Source: Caldifarciminota bacterium
GTDB lineage: Bacteria; Hydrothermota; Hydrothermia; UBA1063; CAJXJZ01
Assembly (NCBI GenBank): GCA_026986775.1
Contig: JALSNX010000003.1
Span: forward strand, 1 to 64,000
Direction of reading: 5' to 3'
Length of the DNA stretch: 64,000 bases
The translations under genes and the position numbers were made by a program. The notes below the pieces were generated by a model. That model saw nothing but the letters and a program-made list of their open reading frames with translations. It had not been told where the DNA came from and did no database searches. Below, in pieces: positions 563 through 55,158 of this stretch; position 1 is the stretch's first letter; each line of letters starts with the position of its first letter.

Positions 563-1527
563 ATCTTGAGATAGAAAGGGTTGAAGACCCTCTATCAATA
601 TGGGATTACAGGGAAAAGTGGGTGGAACTTTTAAACAGAATGCAGGAAAAAAATCCTTTTCTCACACCGCACTGGGTCTTCCTCTCATACGATTATTTTG
701 GAGTAAAAGAGTTTTTTGACTTTTATATACTGAGGCATAATGGAAAAATTGTGGGATTTTTACCCCTTTCCGTGGATATGGGAGAAAAGTGTGTAACAAC
801 TGTTAATGCGGACCTTAAAAGAGCTATAACAGACATTGTTGCAGAGCCATCTGTGAAGGAGAGTATATTCCAGTTCCTGCTGGAGCGTTTTGAAAAGGTA
901 AGTTTTCCACGGGTGATGGAGAGTTCAAGTACCCTCTGGGCAATGGAAAAAAGCGGAAAGGAAGAGAATGCACTTTTTGAAAAGGAGCATACGGATACTA
1001 TTAACAGAATAGAACTTAAAGATGATTTTGATAGAATGCTGTATAGAGAGAAGGGAAAACTGAAGGGCAAAGCTATCAAACTGATTAAAAAGGTGGAAAG
1101 AGAGGTTGATGTTGAAATCAGTATCCATTCAGGTAAAAAAGAGGTCGCTTTTGCTCTTGATGAAGTGCTGGCACTTTCAGAAGGAGAAATCTTTTCAATT
1201 GGAGAGGTGGCTTTCTTGAGGGATATTACATCCCTGTTTTCTCCATCCGGCTGGTCCAGGGTATATGTATTTAAGGCTGATGGATGGCCTGTGGCCGGAG
1301 GAGTGGTTTTCTCATATGAGAAGTCTTCGTTTCTGTATGTATTATCACAGAGAAGGGAATCCCTTGAGATAAAGGCAGGGGATTATCTGTTTCTTAAGAT
1401 ACTTGAGAGTGAAAGCAAACTCGGTACAAGGTCATTCTACTTTTTTGATGATGGTTTTAATCCTTTGATCACCACAACCAGATTGAAGGTTAAAAAAGCT
1501 GTGCTCAGAAAAAGTGGCATCGCTTAG
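538..1527 (+). CDS. FemAB/CelD-like GNAT-fold acyltransferase
   Basis: A 329-residue cytoplasmic protein with the layout of the CelD/FemAB-like acetyltransferase family. An N-terminal GNAT-like half contains WVFLSYDYF-type segments. A C-terminal half carries the characteristic stretch around residues 245-300 (VAGGVVFSYEKSSFLYV, then AGDYLFLKILE and the FDDGFNPL segment). Related proteins occur in envelope or polysaccharide loci and move acyl or aminoacyl groups, but the substrate here is unknown. ATG 538 has GGAGG at 526-530. The gene overlaps both neighbours, which implies translational coupling with the lipoprotein upstream and the STAND protein downstream. Confidence 0.6.
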   Translation: MARTKKALNLEIERVEDPLSIWDYREKWVELLNRMQEKNPFLTPHWVFLSYDYFGVKEFFDFYILRHNGKIVGFLPLSVDMGEKCVTTVNADLKRAITDIVAEPSVKESIFQFLLERFEKVSFPRVMESSSTLWAMEKSGKEENALFEKEHTDTINRIELKDDFDRMLYREKGKLKGKAIKLIKKVEREVDVEISIHSGKKEVAFALDEVLALSEGEIFSIGEVAFLRDITSLFSPSGWSRVYVFKADGWPVAGGVVFSYEKSSFLYVLSQRRESLEIKAGDYLFLKILESESKLGTRSFYFFDDGFNPLITTTRLKVKKAVLRKSGIA

Positions 1528-4500
1528 ATACGGATTGGTTACTTTTCCCTTAAAGATCAGAGAGGCCAGTAAGAGGTCTGTTCTCTATAGACTTTCCATG
1601 CCCTTTGTGAAGGAAACGATACGCAGAGTGCTGGTGAAGGAAATTTCCCCAAAAGAAGGTTTACTTGAGGTAGAGGGTTATTTGAAACATCTGGTAAGAA
1701 TACCATTGCTCTCACGGAGTTTTATTGTACATCTTGAAGATGGTGAAGGTTTCCTGCTAATGGAAGAGGTGGAAAACATTTCTCCCGGAGCCATGAGGTT
1801 TTTTGCACAGGTTCTTAATCGCAGAGGTTTTGCTAAAGAAAAGGGTATTTATTTTGAAAAAGTTCCATTTTTGCCATATGAAGTTGAGGTTGAAGGCATT
1901 GGAAATATTAGATTTCTGGAGGTTCTCAACAAGAATCTAAACCTTAAAACTGGACTGAAAGTAGACAATTTGAAAAGAGAAACTCAACCTCTATGTGATA
2001 GAGCAGAATTTTATGATGACAGGGCTTTTATTTATATAGAATTTGAAGCAAAGGACAGGTCCGTTGTAAGGGATATTATTGGAATAACCGCAGAAATTGC
2101 AAATAAATATAAAATTTTTTTCCACCTCGTGCCGGTAATCCAGAAGGGTAAAATAAGAATTCGTGGTGTGTTTCAGGATGACCTGTATTCCAGTAAGCAT
2201 GTGATAAAAGATATACTGGAATATTTTCAGAGGTCATTTGCCAGTAAAGATCCCGGGGTTAGAGTTTACATGGGAATAAATCCAGTAATTGCTGGTGCCT
2301 TTGAACTTGAACATTTTCGTTTACCTCTTGTTTGTGGTTATGTCCCAGAGCTTGATAAAAGCAAGGTGGTAATAGATCAGAAGCTTAAAGAGTTTATTCT
2401 TGGTGAAGGATTTATTGCCTTTGTGAATATTCCTTTTGTTGGAAGACTGCGGGAGATAGAGGAGTTCATGCATATTTTTGATACGACGCCACAGGAAAAT
2501 TTACCTTATCTTATAAATATTACTGGCATACCCGGAGTGGGAAAAACGAGGTTCGTGGATGAGGTTATTGAATTTATTTCAAGAAAACATCAGAATATCA
2601 GGATATTGAAAATTCAGTTCCCTTATATTGAGGCTGGCAATTTATACACGGCCTTATCTGTTATTGGCCAAACCCTTAAAGTTGTGTCTGATAAAGAAAC
2701 GTCGGTTTCTCTAACTGAAATAGCAAAACGCATTAAGAGAAAGTTAACAGATTTATCCCGTAAGTTCAGGTTGCTTGTGGTGCTTGACAATGCCGATTTT
2801 ATAGGTGATGAGACTCTCACTTTTATAAAGAATGTCCTCTCTGCAAAAGATTCTCCGCCCCTTTTCTTGATTCTCGTGTCCCGTAATAAGAAGATTCCCA
2901 TTGGGCTCTCGCAGGAAAAATATACGCACATAACACTTCCTCCTATGTCAAGAGAATCCATTAAATTTGTTGTGATGGAGCTTCTTGGAGCGTTTCCTTC
3001 AAGTGAATTTATGGAATTCATCTATGATAATACGCAGGGAATTCCTCTATACGTGGTTGAACTTCTTTCAAGATTAAAAAGAGAAGAAAGAATTGTTGTA
3101 AAAGATGGGCAGGTACTTCTCAAGAAGCCTCCAGAAAATCTTCTTTCGCTTGAGGATATACTCAGAAATTTTTACAGGAGTCTTTCAGGTACACCTGTTA
3201 GGGTTTTGCTTGATATTATGGCGGTATTTCATGGAAGTATACCGCTGTCTATTCTTGAGGCGGTTTTTATGGACATATCAAGGTCAGATTTTGATGAAGC
3301 CATTAAGTCTTTAGAGGAGACAGGTCTGGTAGAGTTAAGTCATATGGACGTATTCTCTGCAGGTATTACTATCAGTTTTAAAAACAATCTGTTTAAAGAG
3401 GTTATACGGGAATTACTTGCTCCCAACTGGTATGGCAGGTTAAGAAATTTGATTATTGACGCTTTAAAGAGGGATAAGAGGTTTCCAGACATTTTTAAGC
3501 ATCGGGTAATTGCAGAGTATTTAAAGGAGGCAGGCGATTTTGGTTATGTTGATTATATGTACAGAGCTTCAAGAGAATTTATGCGGGTTCATGCCTATGA
3601 TGTGGCAAAGGACATTATGCTAAAAGCCCAAAAATATGAGAGCTATATAAAAGACAAGTGTGATTTTTATAAAACTCTCACCACTGTTCTGATTCAAACG
3701 GGTGACTATGTTGAAGCAAAAAAGGCCTATGAAAAGGTAATGGAGTATGGGGAAGAGAAAACAAATTTCAGGGTACTGCTTGGTATTATTGTCTATATTG
3801 GAGTTGGTGAGAACAAAAAGGCTGAAAAGCTCCTTAAGGAACTTGATTTGAGGAAGGTAAGGGATCCTGAAAAGGGATACGTATATAATGCTCTTGGTGT
3901 GTATTATTACAGGCTTGGAGAATACAAAAAAGCCCTCAAATACATGGAGAGGGCTCGAAATTTTCTCAGGGATAATGAGGCTATGTTTATAACAAATCTT
4001 TCAAATATGGCGACCACCTACGAGAGAGTTGGTAAGATTACAGAGGCACTTGGTGTAATAGACGAAGCCATTTCTATTGCTAAAGGCATTTACCACAGTC
4101 AGCACCTTATGGGATTGTATCACAATAAGGCTATTATCCACATTCAAACAGGTGAGTATGAGAAAGCCATCTCAGCATTAGAGGAGAGCGCATTCTGGGC
4201 TGAAAAGATGAGCCTAAACAGGGCGATGTCGTATATTTACAACACAAGAGGTGTTTTGCTCTTTGAATTGGGTAGATATAAAGATGCACTCATGGATTTA
4301 AACAGGGCCTATGAGGCTGTCATTAAGACAGAGGATAAAAGACAGAAGTCAAGCATTCTTGCAAATCTTGGTTATGCCAGAACACATCTTGGAGAGTGGA
4401 AAGAAGCCCTCAAAGACCTGAAAGATTCTCTCAGTATTAGAGAGCTCCTTGAAGATGAAAGGGGTATTTCCTATACTCTGTTCTATATGGGTGAGCTGGC

Positions 4501-5113
4501 AAGACAGAGAGAACAGTATGATGAAGCTCTGAATTATTTTGAGAAAAGTATGGAGATTAAAAAGAGAATCAATGAGAGAACGGGTATATTGTACGTAATG
4601 GCTCAGAAGGCTTTTTTACTCATAGAAAAGAAGGATTTTGATACTGCCTATACGCTTTCCCGTAAGGGTTTGAAAGTTGCTGAGGAAGTCTCTGATAGAC
4701 ACGCCTTTTTCCTTCTTCAGCTTGCACTTGCTGCTTTATATCTGAGTATAGGTGAAACTAAGAGGGCTTTTTTACTTTTAGATGAGATACGAGCGGAATT
4801 ATCTCACAGGAATCATCATCACCTTGAGGGACTTGCGTATTATCTTTCTGGAAGTGGTAAACTGCAAAAAGGGGCTTATCGGAGCTCCTTTTCCGATTTT
4901 CTTAACGCAAGGGAAAAATTTCTTTTTACCGGAGAAAAAAAGGCTCTTGCCATGACCCTTGAAAAGCTTGTGGAGGTAATGGTTAAACATTCGGTTTACT
5001 ATATGGGGAGTGATAATATAATCAAAGAGGCCAGAGAAATGGTGGATTTTTACAGGAATAATGGTCTTTCAAACAGGGCAGACAACCTTTCACTTATGCT
5101 TTCGAATTTATAA
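1514..5113 (+). CDS. Giant STAND/AAA ATPase with TPR repeats and degenerate cyclase-like N-terminus
   Basis: A 1199-residue cytoplasmic protein. Residues about 168-300 have the order of a nucleotide cyclase domain that has lost its metal-binding Asp residues (FIYIEFE in place of the first metal strand; GINPVIAG at 254-261 resembles the cyclase GIN..G..AG segment). Next come FVGR at about 307, a Walker A GIPGVGKT at 338-345 and a Walker B strand LLVVLD at 420-425. A helical region follows, then at least ten TPR-like repeats from about residue 690 to 1150. This cyclase-AAA-TPR order is known from bacterial signalling proteins, in which the TPRs sense or bind partners. The GTG start overlaps the previous gene by 14 bases with no clear Shine-Dalgarno; an internal ATG about 30 codons in is the alternative. 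A shorter relative lies at 47776. Confidence 0.7.
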   Translation: MASLRYGLVTFPLKIREASKRSVLYRLSMPFVKETIRRVLVKEISPKEGLLEVEGYLKHLVRIPLLSRSFIVHLEDGEGFLLMEEVENISPGAMRFFAQVLNRRGFAKEKGIYFEKVPFLPYEVEVEGIGNIRFLEVLNKNLNLKTGLKVDNLKRETQPLCDRAEFYDDRAFIYIEFEAKDRSVVRDIIGITAEIANKYKIFFHLVPVIQKGKIRIRGVFQDDLYSSKHVIKDILEYFQRSFASKDPGVRVYMGINPVIAGAFELEHFRLPLVCGYVPELDKSKVVIDQKLKEFILGEGFIAFVNIPFVGRLREIEEFMHIFDTTPQENLPYLINITGIPGVGKTRFVDEVIEFISRKHQNIRILKIQFPYIEAGNLYTALSVIGQTLKVVSDKETSVSLTEIAKRIKRKLTDLSRKFRLLVVLDNADFIGDETLTFIKNVLSAKDSPPLFLILVSRNKKIPIGLSQEKYTHITLPPMSRESIKFVVMELLGAFPSSEFMEFIYDNTQGIPLYVVELLSRLKREERIVVKDGQVLLKKPPENLLSLEDILRNFYRSLSGTPVRVLLDIMAVFHGSIPLSILEAVFMDISRSDFDEAIKSLEETGLVELSHMDVFSAGITISFKNNLFKEVIRELLAPNWYGRLRNLIIDALKRDKRFPDIFKHRVIAEYLKEAGDFGYVDYMYRASREFMRVHAYDVAKDIMLKAQKYESYIKDKCDFYKTLTTVLIQTGDYVEAKKAYEKVMEYGEEKTNFRVLLGIIVYIGVGENKKAEKLLKELDLRKVRDPEKGYVYNALGVYYYRLGEYKKALKYMERARNFLRDNEAMFITNLSNMATTYERVGKITEALGVIDEAISIAKGIYHSQHLMGLYHNKAIIHIQTGEYEKAISALEESAFWAEKMSLNRAMSYIYNTRGVLLFELGRYKDALMDLNRAYEAVIKTEDKRQKSSILANLGYARTHLGEWKEALKDLKDSLSIRELLEDERGISYTLFYMGELARQREQYDEALNYFEKSMEIKKRINERTGILYVMAQKAFLLIEKKDFDTAYTLSRKGLKVAEEVSDRHAFFLLQLALAALYLSIGETKRAFLLLDEIRAELSHRNHHHLEGLAYYLSGSGKLQKGAYRSSFSDFLNAREKFLFTGEKKALAMTLEKLVEVMVKHSVYYMGSDNIIKEAREMVDFYRNNGLSNRADNLSLMLSNL

Positions 5114-43360: not shown

Positions 43361-44953
43361 ATGTTGTTCTTCAGACATAATCTAAATGAAGACCTATTTG
43401 AAGCCATCAATAAACACGATGCCAAAAAAGTTGAATCCCTTCTGAAAAAAGGTGCTGACGTCAATGCTACTACTCCAAAAGGAATTATGCCATTACACCT
43501 TGCAGCAATGGTAGGTGATGTTGAAATTGTCAGAATACTTCTCAAACACGGAGCGGACCCCAACAAGGCAGTTGAGCCATGGGATTATAAGGGGTTAACG
43601 CCACTGCTTGCAGGTCTTTTAGCCAAGAACCCTGAAGTGATTGAAGTTTTACTAAAAAATGGTGCTGACCCCAATGCTGTTATAGAATACAGGGACTATG
43701 AAGGGAAAACCCTTTTACACATTTGTGCAATGGAGGGGTATAAAGAAATTGCAGATGTTCTTTTAAAAAATGGTGCTGACCCTGATAAAAAATGTCTGGT
43801 TAAAGATAGGGGTAAAAGAGTGGAGGATTATTCCCCCATATTTGAGGCTATAATAAAGGGAAGGAATGATATTGTAGAGACTTTAATTGGGCATGGTGCA
43901 GATGTGAACCTGAAGAGGAGAAACGGATGGACACCGTTGCATCTTGCATCTTTCTGGGCGCTTGAGGAAATTGTCTCCACGTTGCTTGAACATGGAGCGC
44001 TTGTCAATGAAAGAAATAATGTTGAAGGTAAGGGATTTACTCCAATGGTGGTTGCATCCGTTGATAGCATACGAGAGATGTTGAAAACAAGTGGTGGAAA
44101 ATTTGAAGGTGTTAATGAAAAAGACATGCGAGAATGGACACCTTTGCATTATGCAGCATATTATGGTATTAATGAACTTGCCGGGTATCTTTTATATCAT
44201 GGAGCAGATTCAAGTATAGTAAATGGTTATGGTGAAACACCTGTATTGCTTGCGAAGCAAAATGGAAAAGAAGAAACAGCATCTTTGATTGAGGATATAG
44301 ACTGGAAAATTGCGAATGAGAAAGGCACAGAAGATGCGTTTATGGATTATCTCCGTAAATATCCAGGGGGAAGATATGAACAGGAGGCACTCAATCGGGT
44401 TCAAAGAATAAAGACACTTGCCATGTACATTTTGAAAGGAGCACAGGCTGGTGACCTTGAAGTTATTAAAAAAGTTTTAGAAAAGGGTGGTAATGTAAAC
44501 TCTCGTGATATGGATGAATGGACACCCCTGCATCATGCTATATGGGCTCAACATCCAGAAGTTGCAGAATTTCTTATAGAAAACGGAGCAGATGTAAATG
44601 CAAAGAATAACGAAGGCTTTTCTCCACTCCATTTTGCAGGTAGAATGGGGCTTGTTGATATAGTAAAACTTCTCATAGAAAAAGGTGCGGATGTTAACAC
44701 AAAGAATAAATACGGTGAAACACCGCTACATTATGCATCAATGGGTGGCTCTCCAGCGGCTGTCAGAATTCTTATAGAAAAAGGTGCTGAAGTAAATGCA
44801 AAGGTCTTAAATGGACTAAATAAAGGAAAAACACCACTTGATTATGCAGAAGCATTCGCACAAGGGGATAGGAAGGCTGAAGTTGTAAAGGTTTTAAAAG
44901 AATATGACGGAAAGCATGGTAATGAGATTATTGACTTTGACCTTGATATATAA
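43361..44953 (+). CDS. Ankyrin-repeat protein, two arrays with a helical linker
   Basis: A 530-residue cytoplasmic protein without a signal peptide. Ankyrin units (T.LH.A...G..EIV..LL..GAD.N) fill about residues 5-310 (roughly eight to nine units) and 365-515 (four units). The linker at about 320-360 reads EDAFMDYLRKYPGGRYEQEALNRV, a short helical motif seen in other repeat proteins. It is a protein-interaction scaffold with unknown partners. GAGGAGG precedes ATG; it is a single gene with its own promoter. Confidence 0.88.
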   Translation: MLFFRHNLNEDLFEAINKHDAKKVESLLKKGADVNATTPKGIMPLHLAAMVGDVEIVRILLKHGADPNKAVEPWDYKGLTPLLAGLLAKNPEVIEVLLKNGADPNAVIEYRDYEGKTLLHICAMEGYKEIADVLLKNGADPDKKCLVKDRGKRVEDYSPIFEAIIKGRNDIVETLIGHGADVNLKRRNGWTPLHLASFWALEEIVSTLLEHGALVNERNNVEGKGFTPMVVASVDSIREMLKTSGGKFEGVNEKDMREWTPLHYAAYYGINELAGYLLYHGADSSIVNGYGETPVLLAKQNGKEETASLIEDIDWKIANEKGTEDAFMDYLRKYPGGRYEQEALNRVQRIKTLAMYILKGAQAGDLEVIKKVLEKGGNVNSRDMDEWTPLHHAIWAQHPEVAEFLIENGADVNAKNNEGFSPLHFAGRMGLVDIVKLLIEKGADVNTKNKYGETPLHYASMGGSPAAVRILIEKGAEVNAKVLNGLNKGKTPLDYAEAFAQGDRKAEVVKVLKEYDGKHGNEIIDFDLDI

Positions 44954-46468: not shown

Positions 46469-46874
46469 TTTAGTTCCGGTTATAGTTGAAAAGGTAGTTA
46501 TAGACCAGAATATAGGTGGACCTTTTGTTCTTTTGAAAAAAAGAGATGGGGAGGTTTATCTTCCCATCTCTATTGGTTTTACAGAAGCGCAATCCATTCT
46601 TTTTGCAATTGAACATGTACACCCACCCCGTCCTATAACTCATGACCTTATTGTAAACTTACTGGAGGCTTTTGAGGCACATCTTTTAAGGGTAGTCATA
46701 AATGACCTGAAAAACAACACCTTTTATGCAAGGATGGTATTACAGAAAGAAAATGTGATGTTTTCAATAGATGCCCGTCCTTCTGATTCAATAGCTGTGG
46801 CAGTTCGCAAGGATGCACCTATATTTGTTTCCCGTCATGTTATGGATGAAGCAGGGCAGTATAATCTGAGTTGA
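46461..46874 (+). CDS. Bifunctional nuclease (BFN/DUF151) family protein
   Basis: A 137-residue protein of the DUF151 family: LPISIGFTEAQSILFAIE, RPITHDLIVNLLEAFEAHLLRVVI and the highly typical DARPSDSIAVAVRKDAPIFV. Plant and bacterial relatives have reported nuclease activity; here function is assigned by family only. GTG 46461 start, overlapping the rplI stop. Confidence 0.9.
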   Translation: MNDLVPVIVEKVVIDQNIGGPFVLLKKRDGEVYLPISIGFTEAQSILFAIEHVHPPRPITHDLIVNLLEAFEAHLLRVVINDLKNNTFYARMVLQKENVMFSIDARPSDSIAVAVRKDAPIFVSRHVMDEAGQYNLS

Positions 46875-47779
46875 TGTTAAAGGTAAAATTAAGGGATGTT
46901 GAATTTAAGAATCCAATTATTACTGCAGCGGGCACATTTGGGAAAGGATATGAACTTGCAGATAGTTTTGACTTATCAAAACTTGGTGGAATAATACCAA
47001 AGACAATAACCCTTAAAAAGCGTGCTGGCAACCCCTTTCCAAGGCTTGTTGAAACTCCCTGTGGTCTTATAAATTCCATAGGACTTGAAAATGACGGAAT
47101 AGAAAGTTTTGTGAAAAATACCTATCCTGTACTGAAGAGACTTCCTGTAAAAATTATTGCGAGTATCTCTGGTGAAACCATTGAGGAGTATGTTGAACTT
47201 CTTAAAATACTTGTTCTGGAAACAGACATAGAGGTATTTGAAATTAATCTTTCGTGTCCGAATGTAGAAAAGGGAGGAGAAGAGTTTTCGCAGGATGTTG
47301 AGGTTTTAACTGATTTACTTCTTAAAATTAGAGATGTGACAGAGAGGCTATTATGGGCCAAACTTCCCCCTGATGTATATGGCATAATTGACAGGGTCAG
47401 GGCTGTTGTCTCCTCAGGTTTTGATGCTGTTGTTTTAAGTAATACCTATAGAGCCACGTATGTGGATGTGGACAAAATGTCCTATTCACTTGCTAAAGAG
47501 CATGGAGGGCTGTCAGGACCGGCTATTCTACCAGTTTCACTTTATATCGTAAAAGAAGTAAAGAAGGCTTTTCCGGATTTCCCCGTTGTTGCCTCAGGTG
47601 GTGTGTTTTCCGTAGAGGATGTTGTAAGATATATACTTGTGGGAGCGCATCTTGTTGAAATAGGCACAATGAATTTTGTAAAGCCGGAGAAGGTTTTTAC
47701 GCTGCCTGATGAGCTGGCAACGTATCTTCATCGTAAGAAAAAAAGTCTCGGTGAGATAAGGGGGTATCTTATTTCATGA
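46874..47779 (+). CDS. pyrD: Dihydroorotate dehydrogenase, class 1B catalytic subunit
   Basis: A 301-residue FMN enzyme of pyrimidine synthesis. AAGTFGKGYEL, NSIGLEN, the catalytic-Cys segment INLSCPNVEKGG and the GGLSGPAI loop identify the class 1 type, and KLPPDV with the C-terminal IGTMNF fits 1B. The 1B enzyme normally pairs with PyrK for NAD; no pyrK is adjacent. ATG 46874 overlaps the upstream stop. Confidence 0.93.
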   Translation: MLKVKLRDVEFKNPIITAAGTFGKGYELADSFDLSKLGGIIPKTITLKKRAGNPFPRLVETPCGLINSIGLENDGIESFVKNTYPVLKRLPVKIIASISGETIEEYVELLKILVLETDIEVFEINLSCPNVEKGGEEFSQDVEVLTDLLLKIRDVTERLLWAKLPPDVYGIIDRVRAVVSSGFDAVVLSNTYRATYVDVDKMSYSLAKEHGGLSGPAILPVSLYIVKEVKKAFPDFPVVASGGVFSVEDVVRYILVGAHLVEIGTMNFVKPEKVFTLPDELATYLHRKKKSLGEIRGYLIS

Positions 47780-50772
47780 AGGAAAGCGAATTTAAACTCT
47801 TTCCGGACCCTGTGATGCGAAAACTCATGTTGTTAAAGGAAGAAGGAATATCACAGGACATAGAGATTTTCCCTGTCCTTCTGTTTGTGGGTATAAATGA
47901 TGAAACGCATCTTGCTTATGAGCGTATCCTCAGAATTTTAAGAGATGCTGCCTATCCATTTAACGGGGAGATTCTTGATGTTTACCCTGATTATGTGGTG
48001 TTATCTTTTGACATATTCCGCACTTTAAGGGATGATGTCTTTCGTGCCCTGGCTTTTGCCAGCCATCTTAAATCCTTTGATTTTGTTAAATTTGTGTTTA
48101 TTACACAGAGAAGAGGTATATTCCGCTACATTAACATAAAGGGGAGAGAATTTGTTTTTATAGACAGTGGGGCATTTTCCGAGTATTCTGGACTGAAAAA
48201 CAGCTTTGATTCAGGTATTTTCATTGATGAAAACATTTATTATGAACTCTACCATAATGTTAAAGTTGAACCTGTTGGTGAGCAGGTTTTAAAGGTTTTA
48301 TCTGTAAGAGAATGTTTTATCCCCTATATGAGACCAGATTTTATAGGGAAGAATCCGTTACAGGCAGTCACTCAGGAGAAGGTCATCACTGTGAGAGGTG
48401 AAAGAGGTTCAGGCAAAACAAAAGTATCTCTCCATTACCTCAGAGAAGGAGGGTTTGAGCGTATTGTTCATGTGAAATTAATTTCCCATATGAAGTACAT
48501 ACCCTTTTCAGCAGTTTCCCAGCTTGCCAGATGTCTTGAATTTTATAGAAAGAATAAAGGTAATTCACCCTGCGACTTTGTAAAAGAAATGCTCTCGGAA
48601 CCTGTAAAAACCGCTATATTTTTTGAAAATGGAGAGTTTATAGATTCTGACAGCAGACAGTTCATAAAAAGACTTGTAGGACAGATTCCATCTCAAGCAG
48701 TATTTATATTTGAGGGAGGAGAGCGCTGGGAGGATGAGGTTACCGTTATGCTGGAGGGATATACTGAATCAAAGGGTATAGAGATTCTTAAATCTATTGC
48801 TGGTGGGAGAAAACCTGACAGGACTGTCATTGAAATACTGAATTCTCTGGATGATGTTGATTATCAGATTATTTATGATTTCTACACCATTTTTTCTTTC
48901 AAAAAGTTCTTTATTTTTGGTGAGGACGTATTTTATGTCCATCCTGCTGCGCGATCCCGGGGTGGTGTTTTTTTGAAAGATAAACTCTATGAACTTTTGT
49001 TTGAGTCTCTTGATGAGGGAGAACAGAGAGAACTTTTAAAAATAATACTTTCTGGCTCAGGTGTAAATCTTGACAGGGTAAGATTGGGAAGTTTGATTAG
49101 GCTTCTCAGGCACGGGATATTGAGAATAGATGGTAATTGTGTGACAGTTTGTTCTCAGGAAGTAGCTCGCAGGTTCTTGAACTGGGTAGATAGAGATAAG
49201 ATACTGGCCTATCTGGAAAATGAACTGGAGGAAGATGCTGGAATTATTCGTGCAGAAATTCTCAGTTTTATAGGAAAAAGTCGTGCGGCTTTCAGGGAGC
49301 TAAAGCAATATCTTGATTCTGTAGATTCTGGTCGTAAAACACTGAAATATATCCTCTATAAACTTCTTGAACTTGAGCCTACAGATAGGGAAAGAATTGA
49401 GATTTTACGCAGGCTTTATGAAGTTTACAAAATCAGTGGAAGCTATGATACGGCGTTGTCCCATCTTAAAGAAGCCTTAAGAACGGCAAAATCAACGAAG
49501 GACAAAAGAGCGATAGCAGAGGTATTGTATGAGCTTGGCAAGTTTAATCTTGAAATAGGGCAGAGCGGAGCGGCAATAATGAACTTTAAAGATGCTCTCA
49601 GATTTGCTAAAGAATCAGGTGATGAAAAAGCGTACGTATCCATTTTGCTTGATATAGCTGAATTTTATCTTAAAAAGAATGACATGGAAAGGATTGTTGA
49701 AGTACTCAGAGAGCTTGAGACCGTTGAGATAAAGGATAAATATCATATGGCAAGATACCTCTATTATTATGGCCTCTATCATCTTTATACTGAGAATATC
49801 AATAGAGCTCATTCCATACTTGAGGATGCGTATAATGTAGCGCGGAAAACCAGAAGTGAAATACTTATCTCCAATATACTTGCGGCCCTTGCAAAAACTG
49901 AACTTTTATTTAAGCAGTACAGGGTTGCTGAACAGTATGCAAATGAGGCACTTTTGAGGGACTCTAAAAACATAGAGGCACGTCTTGTGCTATCCCGTAT
50001 AAAGTTTGTAGAACATGCTCCGGATGAGGCAATGGAGATACTTTATGAAATTTCTACTTCAGGTTCTGCTAACCGTGATGTACTTCTTGACATTGCAGCT
50101 CTTCTTGCGTACAAAGGAAGATATAAACAGGCGATAGGGTATCTTGATGAGCTTTTAGAGAAAGAGGATGTAACATTTAAAAATAAAGTGCTTAAAAGGA
50201 AAGTAAGATATCTTTTACGACTGGGTCAATATGCTGATGCGTATGAGATACTTTCGGTTATCGCAGATGAAGAGTTGAAAGATGAGTTCAACATCTTTCT
50301 AATGGCTGATAAATATACCCCCATAAGTGACACCCCATATTTAAGGGCTGTAATTTCATTTGCAACGCTGGCAAGTGTTGAAAACCTTGATTTTTCGTTT
50401 ATGTATGATTATGATTATATAGACGCAGGGTGGATGGTGGAGTTCAATAAGGCTATAAATGAGCTTGTATCTGGTAGTTATGAGTCTGCTTACGAGAGAA
50501 TGAAGGCTATTGATAATATGTATTTTAGAGCTTCACTTGCTGTGAACATTGCAAAGTATATTATAGACAGGGGAGGAGATGGAAACATGTTTCTGCGTGA
50601 GGCTGGTGATTTAGCAGAAAAAGAGGGATATCTTGAAGTGCTTATGTGGATTTATATTATACTTGGCAAAAAGGATAAGGCTAGGGAGCTTTTTGAGCGT
50701 ATGTTCAAAGATGAGGTGGAGCTGAAAGATAACTATATTCAGGCAAGGAAGTATGTTTTTAACAGAATTTAA
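47776..50772 (+). CDS. Second STAND/AAA ATPase with TPRs and degenerate cyclase-like domain
   Basis: A 998-residue cytoplasmic protein paralogous in layout to the one at 1514. Residues about 30-175 follow a nucleotide-cyclase order: PVLLFVGIND (first metal Asp replaced by Gly), GEILDVYPDYVVLSF (second Asp position kept), ITQRRGIFRYINIKG, and VEPVGEQVLKVLSV as in the cyclase exit strand. DFIGKN near 190 then stands where FVGRE usually begins the AAA part. Walker A is GERGSGKT at 208-215; the Walker B strand TAIFFEN (279-285) has Glu-Asn in place of Asp-Asp/Glu. TPR-like repeats run from about 545 to 985. ATG overlaps the pyrD stop (ATGA). Confidence 0.7.
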   Translation: MKESEFKLFPDPVMRKLMLLKEEGISQDIEIFPVLLFVGINDETHLAYERILRILRDAAYPFNGEILDVYPDYVVLSFDIFRTLRDDVFRALAFASHLKSFDFVKFVFITQRRGIFRYINIKGREFVFIDSGAFSEYSGLKNSFDSGIFIDENIYYELYHNVKVEPVGEQVLKVLSVRECFIPYMRPDFIGKNPLQAVTQEKVITVRGERGSGKTKVSLHYLREGGFERIVHVKLISHMKYIPFSAVSQLARCLEFYRKNKGNSPCDFVKEMLSEPVKTAIFFENGEFIDSDSRQFIKRLVGQIPSQAVFIFEGGERWEDEVTVMLEGYTESKGIEILKSIAGGRKPDRTVIEILNSLDDVDYQIIYDFYTIFSFKKFFIFGEDVFYVHPAARSRGGVFLKDKLYELLFESLDEGEQRELLKIILSGSGVNLDRVRLGSLIRLLRHGILRIDGNCVTVCSQEVARRFLNWVDRDKILAYLENELEEDAGIIRAEILSFIGKSRAAFRELKQYLDSVDSGRKTLKYILYKLLELEPTDRERIEILRRLYEVYKISGSYDTALSHLKEALRTAKSTKDKRAIAEVLYELGKFNLEIGQSGAAIMNFKDALRFAKESGDEKAYVSILLDIAEFYLKKNDMERIVEVLRELETVEIKDKYHMARYLYYYGLYHLYTENINRAHSILEDAYNVARKTRSEILISNILAALAKTELLFKQYRVAEQYANEALLRDSKNIEARLVLSRIKFVEHAPDEAMEILYEISTSGSANRDVLLDIAALLAYKGRYKQAIGYLDELLEKEDVTFKNKVLKRKVRYLLRLGQYADAYEILSVIADEELKDEFNIFLMADKYTPISDTPYLRAVISFATLASVENLDFSFMYDYDYIDAGWMVEFNKAINELVSGSYESAYERMKAIDNMYFRASLAVNIAKYIIDRGGDGNMFLREAGDLAEKEGYLEVLMWIYIILGKKDKARELFERMFKDEVELKDNYIQARKYVFNRI

Positions 50773-50787
50773 CAGGAGGGTTTTGAT

Positions 50788-51255
50788 ATGGTGGATTTTT
50801 TAAAAGCAGTTCCGCTCCTAAAGCATATGAATGAAGACAGACTTCAGGAAATAGCAAGGAGAGCAAGTGTAAAAGAATATAAAGAGAAAGAGGTTATCAT
50901 CAAGCAGGGTGAAAACAGCAATAAATTCTTTATTATTAAGGAAGGACTCGTAGGAATTATTCTGGAAGTGGATAAAAAAAATGAGGAAGTGATTGGTAAT
51001 CTCAAAGGTAAGGGTGAGTTTTTTGGAGAGATTGGTATTATATATAATATTCCAAGAAGTGCTACAGTCATTGCACTTGCCCCAACTACCGTACTTATAC
51101 TTTCTGATAGTGATTTCATGGAGCTTATCTTTGGAGATGAAGAAGCGAGGAAGCTCTTGCAAGAATTGGCTGAAACAAGGCTAATGCAAAACGAAGAGAC
51201 CCTTGAAAAGTACAAGAAAACAATACTGGATGTCATATACAGGTATAACATCTGA
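50788..51255 (+). CDS. Stand-alone cyclic-nucleotide-binding domain protein
   Basis: A 155-residue protein that is essentially one cNMP-binding barrel (about 10-125) plus a C-terminal helix. The phosphate-binding cassette is intact: GEFFGEIGIIYNIPRSATVIAL, with the Glu that contacts the ribose and the Arg-Ser pair that contacts phosphate. There is no DNA-binding helix-turn-helix, so it is not a CRP-type factor by itself. AGGAGGG precedes ATG. It immediately follows the STAND protein with the cyclase-like domain, and could serve as its partner. Confidence 0.85.
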   Translation: MVDFLKAVPLLKHMNEDRLQEIARRASVKEYKEKEVIIKQGENSNKFFIIKEGLVGIILEVDKKNEEVIGNLKGKGEFFGEIGIIYNIPRSATVIALAPTTVLILSDSDFMELIFGDEEARKLLQELAETRLMQNEETLEKYKKTILDVIYRYNI

Positions 51256-51257
51256 GA

Positions 51258-52535
51258 ATGCTGTTTCTCTTTATTATCACATTTTTAAAGGGATGTATTC
51301 TTTCAGAAGGGGATAGTGTATATACAAATGGATTTTCTGATAGGATTCAGTGGGTATATATTGAGGACTACAAAAATTTTGATTTCTCATACTGTGATTT
51401 TATTATAGTAAGTAACCCTCCTGCTTATTCCTTTAGCGGTATTGACTCCCTCCTTCTACAGTATACAAGGAAAGGTGGTAATCTTTACTTTGAGTCTCTG
51501 GATTTTACAGGATATGCTACTTTAGAAAGGTATGTGCAATATATTGTGACTGATGCATACACAAAAGATACGCTCCGTGCTTCTGGAAGTGGTATATTTG
51601 AGGGAGTGAGTTTTAGACTTATGCACCCGCCTTTAATGTTTTTCACTGTTGATACATCAAAAGAATGGGATTTTGTTAAAGTTGAGGATAACCAGCTTAT
51701 TGAGGGAGCAATTGTGTTGTATGCCACATCCATTGGAAAGGGTAGTGTTATATTCTCATCATATCTCTTTATGCAGGATTCAGTGCAGGATGAGTTGCGT
51801 AAAAGATTGGAGGGATACTTTTTCCCTGATATTTCAGTGATAAGTGATTCTGTGGATTCTACATTTAGATACATGTCAGGGGAACTTTACCGTAAGGAAG
51901 GTTTGTTTTTGAGATTTTACTTGAGCGATTTTGAGGGGGTCCCCGCAGGAAGGGTGGCGGTTGTCAATGTATACCAGAATATTATTGGTCCGGATACAAT
52001 GACAATCTTTTATATGGGCCCCTTTGTCTGTGAAATGCTTTCTTTTTGTGACACGGTACCACCATATGTTAACTTTTACCTGCAGGGTGAAAGCTTTGAT
52101 CTTTTGCATTATGAGACACTTGCAGTTGGGGATGGTAACATGGAAGAGATTGTATTTGTGGCACCTTCTGGAAAAACAATCGGATTTCTTTCTGGTACAG
52201 AAAGGGTCGGATTTTTACCATTTTCTCTTTCATCAATATCGCCATATGACAGAGTCCGCTTTTTAGCGTGTCTGGTAGATTTTAAATATAGTAGCTCAAG
52301 TATTAAAGAGAGACTTGAATATTTTAAGGGTGCTTTGGCAGGTACCTTCAGAGATGTTCAGGATGTTATGGTGTTTACAATTGATGGGAGGGTGGTATAC
52401 CACTTAGAGGGCAGTAATAGTATTGCTTACAATTTTAACTCTTTACCAGACGGTCTTTATATAATAAAATTAAAACTTAATAGCGGTAAGGACAGTTTAA
52501 TGCTACTAAACAAATTGCAAGGAGATAAACAATGA
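51258..52535 (+). CDS. Secreted protein with ThuA-like start and T9SS-like end, unknown
   Basis: A 425-residue exported protein with a hydrophobic N-terminus (MLFLFIITFLKG). Residues about 30-190 (FDFSYCDFIIVSNPPAYSF, LLQYTRKGGNLYFESLDFTG) resemble the ThuA/glutamine-amidotransferase-like Rossmann layer; no catalytic triad is evident. The middle is beta-rich. The C-terminus (VMVFTIDGRVVYHL, LPDGLYIIKLKL) is like a type IX sorting domain, with about 14 extra residues. It lies between the cNMP-binding and pseudo-receiver genes and overlaps the latter by four bases. Confidence 0.55.
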   Translation: MLFLFIITFLKGCILSEGDSVYTNGFSDRIQWVYIEDYKNFDFSYCDFIIVSNPPAYSFSGIDSLLLQYTRKGGNLYFESLDFTGYATLERYVQYIVTDAYTKDTLRASGSGIFEGVSFRLMHPPLMFFTVDTSKEWDFVKVEDNQLIEGAIVLYATSIGKGSVIFSSYLFMQDSVQDELRKRLEGYFFPDISVISDSVDSTFRYMSGELYRKEGLFLRFYLSDFEGVPAGRVAVVNVYQNIIGPDTMTIFYMGPFVCEMLSFCDTVPPYVNFYLQGESFDLLHYETLAVGDGNMEEIVFVAPSGKTIGFLSGTERVGFLPFSLSSISPYDRVRFLACLVDFKYSSSSIKERLEYFKGALAGTFRDVQDVMVFTIDGRVVYHLEGSNSIAYNFNSLPDGLYIIKLKLNSGKDSLMLLNKLQGDKQ

Positions 52536-53668
52536 AAAAGAAAATACTCATAGTTGAACCAGATAAAGAATTACAGGTAAGGCTTTCAGATGCATTAAGG
52601 GATAGAGGATATCAGGTTCTCGCAAGTGAGAATTTTGAAGAAGCTGACGATACACTTCATTTTCTGAAACCTGATGTTGTAATAATGGAGCTTCTGCTTC
52701 CAGATAGAAACGGTGTTGACCTTATCGTAAATATCAAGCAAAATCAGCCAGGAGCGCGGATAATAGTGTTTACAGATATAAAAGGCTCGACAATTGAAAG
52801 GTCAGTAAAAAAGAAAGGAGCAGATATTTTTATAAACAAAGTTGGTAATGTGGAAGAAGATACGGCTAAGATTCTTGATGCTGTGGATGAACTTTTAAGG
52901 CCGAGGGAAGAGAAGACCCAGCCTGTAGAAGGATTTAAGGGAAATCTGGAAGGAGTTGACCTGAAGGACCTGGTTCAGGCATTCTCCCTTATGGGCCGTG
53001 ATATTATCATAAAAATACGTGATGTCAAAACCTTTAAAGAGGGGACACTTTATTTCCGGGCAGGCGCTGTAGTTGATGCAAAGGCAGGTGCCAAGAGAGG
53101 AGTTGATGCCTTTAAAGAAATAATGATGTGGGAAAATGGAATATTTGAGGTTGCCTATCCCAATCCAGATGAGCCCATAGAAACCACCATTGATGTGCCA
53201 CTGGATGTACTACTACTGGATGTTGTAAGAGAGCAGGATGAAATGCTGCAGGAGACCACAAAACCAAGATTCACACCCAAGGAGGTTTTAAAACATATAC
53301 GCGCTGAAATCCCGGGTTTTATAGGTGCAATGGTATTTGACTATGAAGAAGGTGCTCCACTTGAAACAGAGACTATCCTTGAAGGAAAAAGCTTTCACGC
53401 TTCTGCAACTCTTTATGGGGGTATTTTAAAATCCGCTATGGAGGCAATGGAGTTTGTAACTCAGGGTAACGAGAAATCAAGGGACTTTATAGATATGATA
53501 ATTACAGACAAGTATGACCATGTGATAATGGTACCTCTGCATGTGGAAACCTTTGCTGTTTTCCTGCTCGTAAATGTTGATACCAACCCACATGAGGCGT
53601 TAAATGTGGTAAAAAGATACGTACCCCTCCTGGTTGAATTGTATAAGGAACAAGAAGCGAGTATGTGA
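52532..53668 (+). CDS. Pseudo-receiver - PATAN (DUF4388) - Roadblock/LC7 protein
   Basis: A 378-residue cytosolic protein in three parts. Residues 1-120 are a receiver fold (KILIVEPDKE, VVIMELLLPDRNG). The phosphorylatable Asp is Glu53, the acidic pocket is Glu9-Pro10, while Thr81 and Lys103 are kept. That suggests a constitutive, phosphomimetic state. Residues about 130-245 match DUF4388/PATAN (GNLEGVDLKDLVQAFSLMG, GTLYFRAGAVVDA). Residues about 250-375 resemble a Roadblock/LC7 domain, which in bacteria often regulates MglA-type GTPases; none is visible here. ATGA overlap with the gene upstream. Confidence 0.8.
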   Translation: MKKKILIVEPDKELQVRLSDALRDRGYQVLASENFEEADDTLHFLKPDVVIMELLLPDRNGVDLIVNIKQNQPGARIIVFTDIKGSTIERSVKKKGADIFINKVGNVEEDTAKILDAVDELLRPREEKTQPVEGFKGNLEGVDLKDLVQAFSLMGRDIIIKIRDVKTFKEGTLYFRAGAVVDAKAGAKRGVDAFKEIMMWENGIFEVAYPNPDEPIETTIDVPLDVLLLDVVREQDEMLQETTKPRFTPKEVLKHIRAEIPGFIGAMVFDYEEGAPLETETILEGKSFHASATLYGGILKSAMEAMEFVTQGNEKSRDFIDMIITDKYDHVIMVPLHVETFAVFLLVNVDTNPHEALNVVKRYVPLLVELYKEQEASM

Positions 53669-55158
53669 CCGGGTTAGTTATTCTTTTGCTGTATAACCTT
53701 TCACTCAATTTATCCTATTCTCCCTACAGAATGCTTTTTACCACGGAGTTCAGAGGAAATCCATCAAAAAATATATTCTCCACTTCTTTTATGGAAATAG
53801 AGAGAAATTCAAATACAGACAGAGAAAGAAGGCATATCTCCACTCTTTTTTCAATATCCATGAAACAAAATTTTGGAATCAGGGGAGTTCTGGACAGAAC
53901 ACTTGAAAGCACTTCTAAAGGTAGCGGTGAGAGCAAGGGTGGCGTGATGGAAGCCGCTTATAATTCCAGTCCTGTATTTTTGAGGGCTTATCTTGAAGCC
54001 AGAGAATATAAAAAAGACAGTGCAATGTTCAATCCAGGCTATGGTGTTATTACATATGGAAATTCAGGTTTTAACAGTTTAAGGATGAGAGCATATGGAG
54101 AATACAGAAAGTTCGGTAAATACGAAAAAATTGGAGCAGAGTGCACAGGAAAGAGCATACAGGAAGGAAATATGGATTACGGTTTTGCTTTAAATGTTAG
54201 AAGACAGACACTGCCTGTTGGTCTTTTTACTGTTGATAACAGATTAACAGGAAGATTAAGGGGTGATGTTGATGTTATAAGAAAAAACTGGATGGCCCGT
54301 TTTATGATATTCTATATGAACACAAAAAGCACAAGGATTGCCAGTATGAATTTTCAAAAGCTGAGAATGAGGCTTTCCTGGAACATGATTTTTTATAGAG
54401 ATAATCGCAAAAGCACAGGCATTAAAGGACATGCAGGGTATTTAACAAGGCATTTTACAGAGGGAGGAATAGAAAATATCATGGATTATGGCTTTTTGTA
54501 TAGGTTTGCCCATAGCAGTTTTTTTGTTGAATCTTCTGTGAATATGAAAAGGTTTGACTACTTTTCACTTGTTCCTTTAGATAGAGATGAGAGGTCTATT
54601 TCATTGCGTGTATCTTTAAACAAATACAGCTTTAGCTTTGAAAGGCTGGACATAAACTATATACGTTCGCAGTATGTATCAAATTCCAGGAGCATGAAAA
54701 AGTTTGAGGTTTCAAGCGAGAATCATAACTTTAATGTTAGGGGAATAAAGGTGAGATACAGTGGCAGGCTTTTTGCTGGCATTTTTACCCCCATCTACAC
54801 AAATGACTTGGGGTTTTATCAAAGGTACTGGGAGAACAGGATTCTGTGTAATACCAGAGATAGCCTTGTTTCCGCGACACTTTCTATAAGGTATAAACAA
54901 TTTGGGGAGTTCAAAAACGATTCTATCTATACACCTTCCTGGGACCTTGAATACATTAACTCACTCTCCCTGAAAGTATTTTCCAGTAGAAATATCAGGA
55001 CCTTTATAAGGCAATATTCTGATGTATTAAATACAGGTGGGACAAGAGAGTGGAAGATTGGAATAAGGATTGAAACAGAAACGTACAATTTTGAAGCTGG
55101 AGTGGGTATGCTTATGGGAAGAGAAAATTCGTATCTGGAGTTTGAAGGATGGATATAA
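53665..55158 (+). CDS. Putative outer-membrane beta-barrel protein
   Basis: A 497-residue protein with a hydrophobic N-terminal signal (MTGLVILLLYNLSLNLSYS, GTG start overlapping the previous stop). The remainder alternates polar and aromatic residues in 10-14-residue strands and ends in YLEFEGWI, consistent with a barrel. Basic content is high for a barrel. I recognise no family. It overlaps the DUF58 gene by ten bases, suggesting linked expression with the envelope-related DUF58/BatA pair. Confidence 0.5.
   Translation: MTGLVILLLYNLSLNLSYSPYRMLFTTEFRGNPSKNIFSTSFMEIERNSNTDRERRHISTLFSISMKQNFGIRGVLDRTLESTSKGSGESKGGVMEAAYNSSPVFLRAYLEAREYKKDSAMFNPGYGVITYGNSGFNSLRMRAYGEYRKFGKYEKIGAECTGKSIQEGNMDYGFALNVRRQTLPVGLFTVDNRLTGRLRGDVDVIRKNWMARFMIFYMNTKSTRIASMNFQKLRMRLSWNMIFYRDNRKSTGIKGHAGYLTRHFTEGGIENIMDYGFLYRFAHSSFFVESSVNMKRFDYFSLVPLDRDERSISLRVSLNKYSFSFERLDINYIRSQYVSNSRSMKKFEVSSENHNFNVRGIKVRYSGRLFAGIFTPIYTNDLGFYQRYWENRILCNTRDSLVSATLSIRYKQFGEFKNDSIYTPSWDLEYINSLSLKVFSSRNIRTFIRQYSDVLNTGGTREWKIGIRIETETYNFEAGVGMLMGRENSYLEFEGWI

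Follow-up and report, generated by a model that had tools for sequence, protein, structure and literature searches.

A degenerate class III cyclase-like STAND-TPR protein next to a stand-alone cyclic-nucleotide-binding domain in an uncultured bacterium related to candidate division WOR-3

Introduction

What does a cyclase-like protein do once its catalytic residues are gone, and why would a gene for a cyclic-nucleotide-binding domain stay next to it? The question is raised by two adjacent genes in a 64,000-nt window (the whole stretch of DNA analysed here, contig C3 of a 2.18 Mb genome that is 98% complete). The host is an uncultured bacterium; the named relatives of its genome are candidate division WOR-3 and Candidatus Hydrothermota MAGs. 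Pseudoenzymes are well known among kinases and GGDEF/EAL proteins. In the open-licence literature, we found no description of a bacterial class III cyclase pseudoenzyme and nothing on cAMP in WOR-3.

Results

A pair of genes within a tight operon

The original prediction placed a pseudo-cyclase STAND protein beside a lone cyclic-nucleotide-binding domain, and both open reading frames are present, at 47776-50772 (998 aa) and 50788-51255 (155 aa). They belong to a tight operon at 46871-53668, in which the start of the 998-aa gene overlaps pyrD by 4 bp and 15 bp separate it from the 155-aa gene:

46871..47779, + strand: pyrD (dihydroorotate dehydrogenase), upstream neighbour and synteny anchor
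47776..50772, + strand: 998-aa protein with a degenerate class III cyclase-like head, a STAND-type NTPase and a TPR superhelix
50788..51255, + strand: 155-aa stand-alone cNMP-binding domain (CNBD), the sole PF00027 protein of the genome
51258..52535, + strand: probably secreted 425-aa protein; as third gene of the inserted block, it is conserved within the genus alone
52532..53668, + strand: response regulator with DUF4388, retained throughout the order and used as the synteny anchor downstream

Within the genus, the two genes lie side by side in each of the three genomes that show both (G000, G001 and G003); in the fourth, G002, the contig breaks off within the first gene. At the same place in a genome from another family of the order (G008), pyrD is followed by a 1126-aa cyclase-STAND-TPR gene and a CNBD gene. 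A search of relatives for conserved adjacency, as first proposed, thus recovers the pair throughout the informative genomes of the genus, and a cyclase with a CNBD at the G008 locus. This linkage evidence comes from one genus and one genome of a sister family.

Besides pyrD, the operon-like block holds ribosomal-protein genes. Upstream of ribosomal-protein and ssb genes, the window encodes a 530-aa protein made almost entirely of ankyrin repeats (43361-44953). The genes at 51258-52535 and 53665-55158 are kept at the locus in the genus; in the sister genus, the pyrD-response regulator-vWA locus lacks them. We rejected the gene at 51258-52535 as part of an ancestral cassette, its match to the same-position gene of G008 not being significant.

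Predicted fold of the head

47848..48315, + strand: cyclase-like head (residues 25-180), catalytically degenerate; from AF2, Foldseek and a local HMM

The N-terminal part of the 998-aa protein does show the cyclase layout that drew attention to it, with FVGI at residues 37-40, YPDYVVLSF at 70-78 and VGEQVLKV. Neither Pfam (at E<=1) nor NCBIfam finds a cyclase domain in this protein, and phmmer against PDB sequences does not recognise the head. Pairwise shuffles of the head scored only Z 2.6 with the G008 cyclase, and the other orthologues gave nothing consistent; sequence alone was therefore judged insufficient for its assignment.

We modelled residues 1-198 with AF2, using four orthologues as the only input (pLDDT 73.5, pTM 0.75). 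The order of elements in the model, b-a-bb-a-b-bb-a-b-a-bb, is that of class III cyclases. All 50 best PDB matches found by Foldseek are class III cyclases (E 9e-7 to 6e-5): the top one is 2w01 (Cya2; E 9e-7, probability 1.00), and human soluble AC stands lower among them. TM-scores are moderate, about 0.55, also for the top match. A clearly different N-terminal fold, which would speak against a cyclase origin, is thus not what the model gives. A class III HMM built from the phylum scores the head at 13.3 bits and a GGDEF HMM at -1.4; in global profile alignment, the respective E-values are 0.008 and 0.89. On the strength of the model, we assign a class III cyclase fold to the head; sequence homology is marginal but points in the same direction.

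A guanylate kinase in the window, at 11.9 bits with the head profile, was discarded as a chance match. The original prediction saw the cyclase layout "again" in the 998-aa protein, probably with reference to a 1199-aa STAND-TPR protein at window positions 1514-5113; the local class III cyclase HMM does not match the latter.

The genome also encodes four GGDEF-STAND-TPR proteins:

L196:708-4007(-): GGDEF-STAND-TPR protein
L197:1288-4581(+): GGDEF-STAND-TPR protein
L198:1215-4349(+): GGDEF-STAND-TPR protein
L199:999-4118(-): GGDEF-STAND-TPR protein

Once these were found, and since GGDEF and class III folds share a core, we considered a GGDEF diguanylate cyclase, and not a class III enzyme, as the origin of the head. 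We rejected this on the uniformly class III PDB matches and on the HMM and profile scores; the syntenic relative G008 has a class III head as well, which makes a GGDEF origin very unlikely. When this set is compared with class III loci (L006, L007 and L195), similar STAND-TPR bodies are seen to bear a class III cyclase head in some cases and a GGDEF diguanylate-cyclase head in others, as though synthases of second messengers had been exchanged on one sensor scaffold. As in soluble adenylyl cyclase, the protein at L195:564-3791(+) has tandem class III heads in front of its STAND-TPR body.

Loss of catalytic residues and conservation of the head

Catalytic positions were read from an alignment of the orthologues with five intact cyclases. 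Including the window protein, there are four orthologues, all from one genus, and its full-length identity to the other three is 38-52%. Two positions of the alignment are marked in the window:

47890..47892, + strand: codon of Gly39, at the metal-binding Asp-1 position
47989..47991, + strand: codon of Asp72, at the metal-binding Asp-2 position

Across the four orthologues, the metal Asp-1 position is occupied by G, N, R and R, and G39 of the window protein agrees with the earlier reading that glycine replaces the first metal aspartate. The second metal aspartate is kept in three of the four, including the window protein (D72), and lost in one. The position of the purine-binding lysine holds D, D, D and E, and the segment carrying the transition-state Asn/Arg is absent from all. 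Judged by these residues, the head has lost its catalytic apparatus in all four orthologues.

Identity among the orthologues is 58/44/46% for the head, against 50/34/35% for the NTPase and 49/41/37% for the TPR part. Conservation of the head exceeds that of the NTPase and of most of the TPR part; the head also contains an invariant-rich stretch, RGFFRYxNIKGREFV, and together these argue that it is under constraint and not simply decaying.

Class III cyclases work as dimers, and degenerate second sites occur in soluble guanylyl cyclase and in transmembrane cyclases. PF00211 has five matches in this genome, four of which we read as intact cyclases; the genome thus apparently has at least four other, putatively active cyclases. 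The head might accordingly be the inactive half of a heterodimer, tuning an intact cyclase head with the CNBD as feedback. Established dimers of this kind, the presence of several intact cyclases with STAND-TPR bodies of a similar type, and the conserved core of the head would all suit such a role. However, the transition-state hairpin/helix region and the C-terminal KG hairpin, near the dimer interface, are shortened, and no intact cyclase gene is linked to the pair; we consider heterodimer formation unlikely.

STAND NTPase and TPR body

48397..48420, + strand: Walker A GERGSGKT (residues 208-215), with GKT invariant in the orthologues
48613..48645, + strand: Walker B region AIFFENGEFID (residues 280-290), with E284-N285 replacing ED/DD
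49273..50769, + strand: TPR superhelix and conserved C-terminal part (residues 500-998), Pfam TPR_12 E 1.6e-12

A STAND HMM matches the 998-aa protein weakly, at 24 bits. The degenerate Walker B noticed at the outset is real: it reads IFFEN and not hhhED/DD, while Walker A is intact. One orthologue has ED, and other cyclases of the genome have intact forms. With Walker B altered, gating by the NTPase is uncertain. The full-length model has a P-loop domain, a linker of poor model quality (residues 314-401), a part resembling a winged helix, and an extended helical superhelix, with all-helical repeats at residues 461-997. By TPR_12 and the helical model, the superhelical repeat sensor expected of a STAND NTPase is present.

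The 155-aa CNBD protein

The 155-aa protein matches PF00027 with E 5e-20 and 71.6 bits (curated cut-off 27.5), the single match in a whole-genome search. Its phosphate cassette is intact (G80-E81, R90-S91); G80, E81 and R90 are invariant in four relatives including G008, in which S91 is T. In CRP and PycTIR, the ribose and the cyclic phosphate are contacted by these three invariant positions (PMC11224242). We infer that the 155-aa protein binds cAMP. Pfam finds no HTH DNA-binding domain, nor any other domain, in it; hence it is not of the CRP/FNR type. Its description as a lone CNBD with an intact cassette and no DNA-binding part holds, PF00027 being all that is found across the 155 residues.

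Intact form, degenerate form and absence at one locus

In G008, the cyclase motifs are intact (FADI, KFVGDA and GDVVNTASR) and the CNBD is 47% identical. The CNBD gene there (L038:3932-4396) has an in-frame TGA, so this pair may be broken, or misassembled. Of the outgroup proteins, the G008 cyclase scores highest with the orthologue profile, at 74 bits against 50 for the next. It aligns end to end, from the head to the last residues (E 6e-16), whereas a paralogue aligns in the TPRs only. Outside the genus, the C-terminal domain is found in the G008 cyclase only (C-terminal HMM, 41 bits; next <8).

In four near-complete genomes of the sister genus (G004-G007), both genes are missing and pyrD and the response regulator are neighbours, one of the four having an unrelated gene between them. 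No PF00027 protein is recognisable in these genomes, although each has 2-3 class III cyclases. Adjacency in the genus and joint absence here indicate that the two genes come and go together. One locus within the order thus shows the intact form, the degenerate form and absence. We infer that the intact cyclase is the ancestral state, because losing catalytic residues is far easier than regaining them.

As the block is shared with pyrD and ribosomal-protein genes, adjacency could be mere co-transcription. The two proteins would then work separately, the ribosomal-protein/pyrD operon would merely collect genes, and the CNBD would act on another target. This fits the tight operon with housekeeping genes and the very different rates of the two proteins, the 155-aa one being 75-85% identical within the genus and the large one 38-52%. 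Across the order, however, both genes are present or absent together, and similar pairs occur at other loci in unrelated genomes; separate functions appear rather unlikely.

Related pairs in the phylum and beyond

Among 60 genomes of the phylum, 25 have both a CNBD and a class III cyclase, 25 have neither, and 5 and 5 have a single one of them (Fisher p 4e-7, the genomes not being independent). We also surveyed the neighbours of related CNBDs at 79 named loci. Stand-alone CNBDs of about 143-163 aa adjoin cyclase-STAND-TPR genes in several Deltaproteobacteria, and a Syntrophus contig (L136:4501-10893) carries the tandem CNBD - cyclase-STAND-TPR - CNBD - cyclase-STAND-TPR. Pairing of a stand-alone CNBD with a cyclase-STAND-TPR protein is therefore a recurrent type. 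The original prediction had suggested that the pair may be an uncharacterised signalling system; as to its kind this does not wholly stand, since such pairs recur elsewhere.

A cyclase next to a CNBD receptor is also the layout of Pycsar, a two-gene anti-phage defence. In PADLOC, PycTIR models match the CNBD through their CNBD part, and PycC models match the G008 cyclase but not the 998-aa protein. Its head has lost the catalytic residues, the CNBD comes without a TIR or transmembrane effector, and the pair sits at a fixed housekeeping locus kept by descent, with no defence island. We rejected membership in Pycsar, as two of its defining features, an active pyrimidine cyclase and a TIR/TM effector, are lacking; a defence role of this type is scarcely credible.

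Discussion

We now propose an explanation for the pair, to which we give an even chance of being right: an ancestral class III cyclase-STAND-TPR protein had a dedicated stand-alone cNMP receptor, its cyclase became a pseudoenzyme, and the CNBD now reads cAMP for the STAND-TPR protein. In the genus, the pseudoenzyme head would have been retained for structure or docking, with the receptor staying highly conserved. cAMP supplied by the other cyclases of the cell would bind the CNBD protein. Once loaded, the CNBD may dock on the STAND-TPR protein, perhaps through the pseudo-cyclase head or the lineage-specific C-terminus. The docked CNBD would in turn gate the nucleotide-dependent assembly of the STAND-TPR protein, its presumed output.

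The predicted fold, the adjacency, the co-loss and the intact cyclase at the G008 locus support the original idea of a cyclase-like scaffold with a separate cNMP-binding partner. That idea cast the CNBD as the effector; the CNBD, the only one in the genome, as receptor with the STAND-TPR protein as its output fits at least as well. We offer as a tentative possibility that the STAND-TPR protein, its head dead, forms the output subunit of a cNMP pathway, the sole CNBD acting on it in trans.

An enzyme that probably made a cyclic-nucleotide signal in the past seems to have lost its catalytic site, and yet the partner gene, which encodes the only recognisable cyclic-nucleotide receptor of the genome, is kept; this suggests that a signal producer has turned into part of a signal reader. 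With active form, dead form and absence at one syntenic locus, such a change from signal maker to possible reader becomes traceable. Several intact cyclases and one recognisable cNMP receptor also yield a concrete prediction of where cAMP acts in these bacteria.

The closest known proteins are soluble-adenylyl-cyclase-like class III cyclase-STAND-TPR proteins, with which the 998-aa protein shares the domain order, the P-loop, the TPR body and the predicted fold of the head. It differs from them in lacking the catalytic residues, in the deletion of the transition-state segment and in a shortened STAND region.

CbpA of Pseudomonas aeruginosa is not known to bind DNA. A passage of PMC11139211 cites it as a second cAMP effector besides Vfr; like CbpA as presented there, the 155-aa protein is of the cNMP-binding type and other than a CRP-type regulator, and unlike it, the 155-aa protein is a single domain and the only CNBD of its genome. 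Predicted nucleotide-cyclase-like proteins with CNBD neighbours are described in part of PMC4886424, and the present pair likewise joins a divergent cyclase-like protein to a conserved CNBD neighbour. The authors argue that the catalytic residues are retained in their proteins, whereas here they are lost; a STAND-TPR body like that of our protein has no mention in that part of the paper. Pycsar (PycC and a CNBD receptor; PMC11224242) also has neighbouring cyclase-fold and CNBD genes, but the pair described here has no active cyclase, as far as residues tell, no TIR/TM effector and no defence locus.

Degenerate GGDEF/EAL proteins serve as c-di-GMP effectors (PMC11139211). If the tentative reading of the STAND-TPR protein as output subunit is true, it would be a cyclic-mononucleotide counterpart of these receptors, and a sister family would still show the active ancestor at this locus. 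As in those effectors, a second-messenger enzyme domain would have been reduced to a non-catalytic role, presumably in the same pathway; here, in contrast, the fold is that of class III and the presumed ligand-binding function resides in a separate protein.
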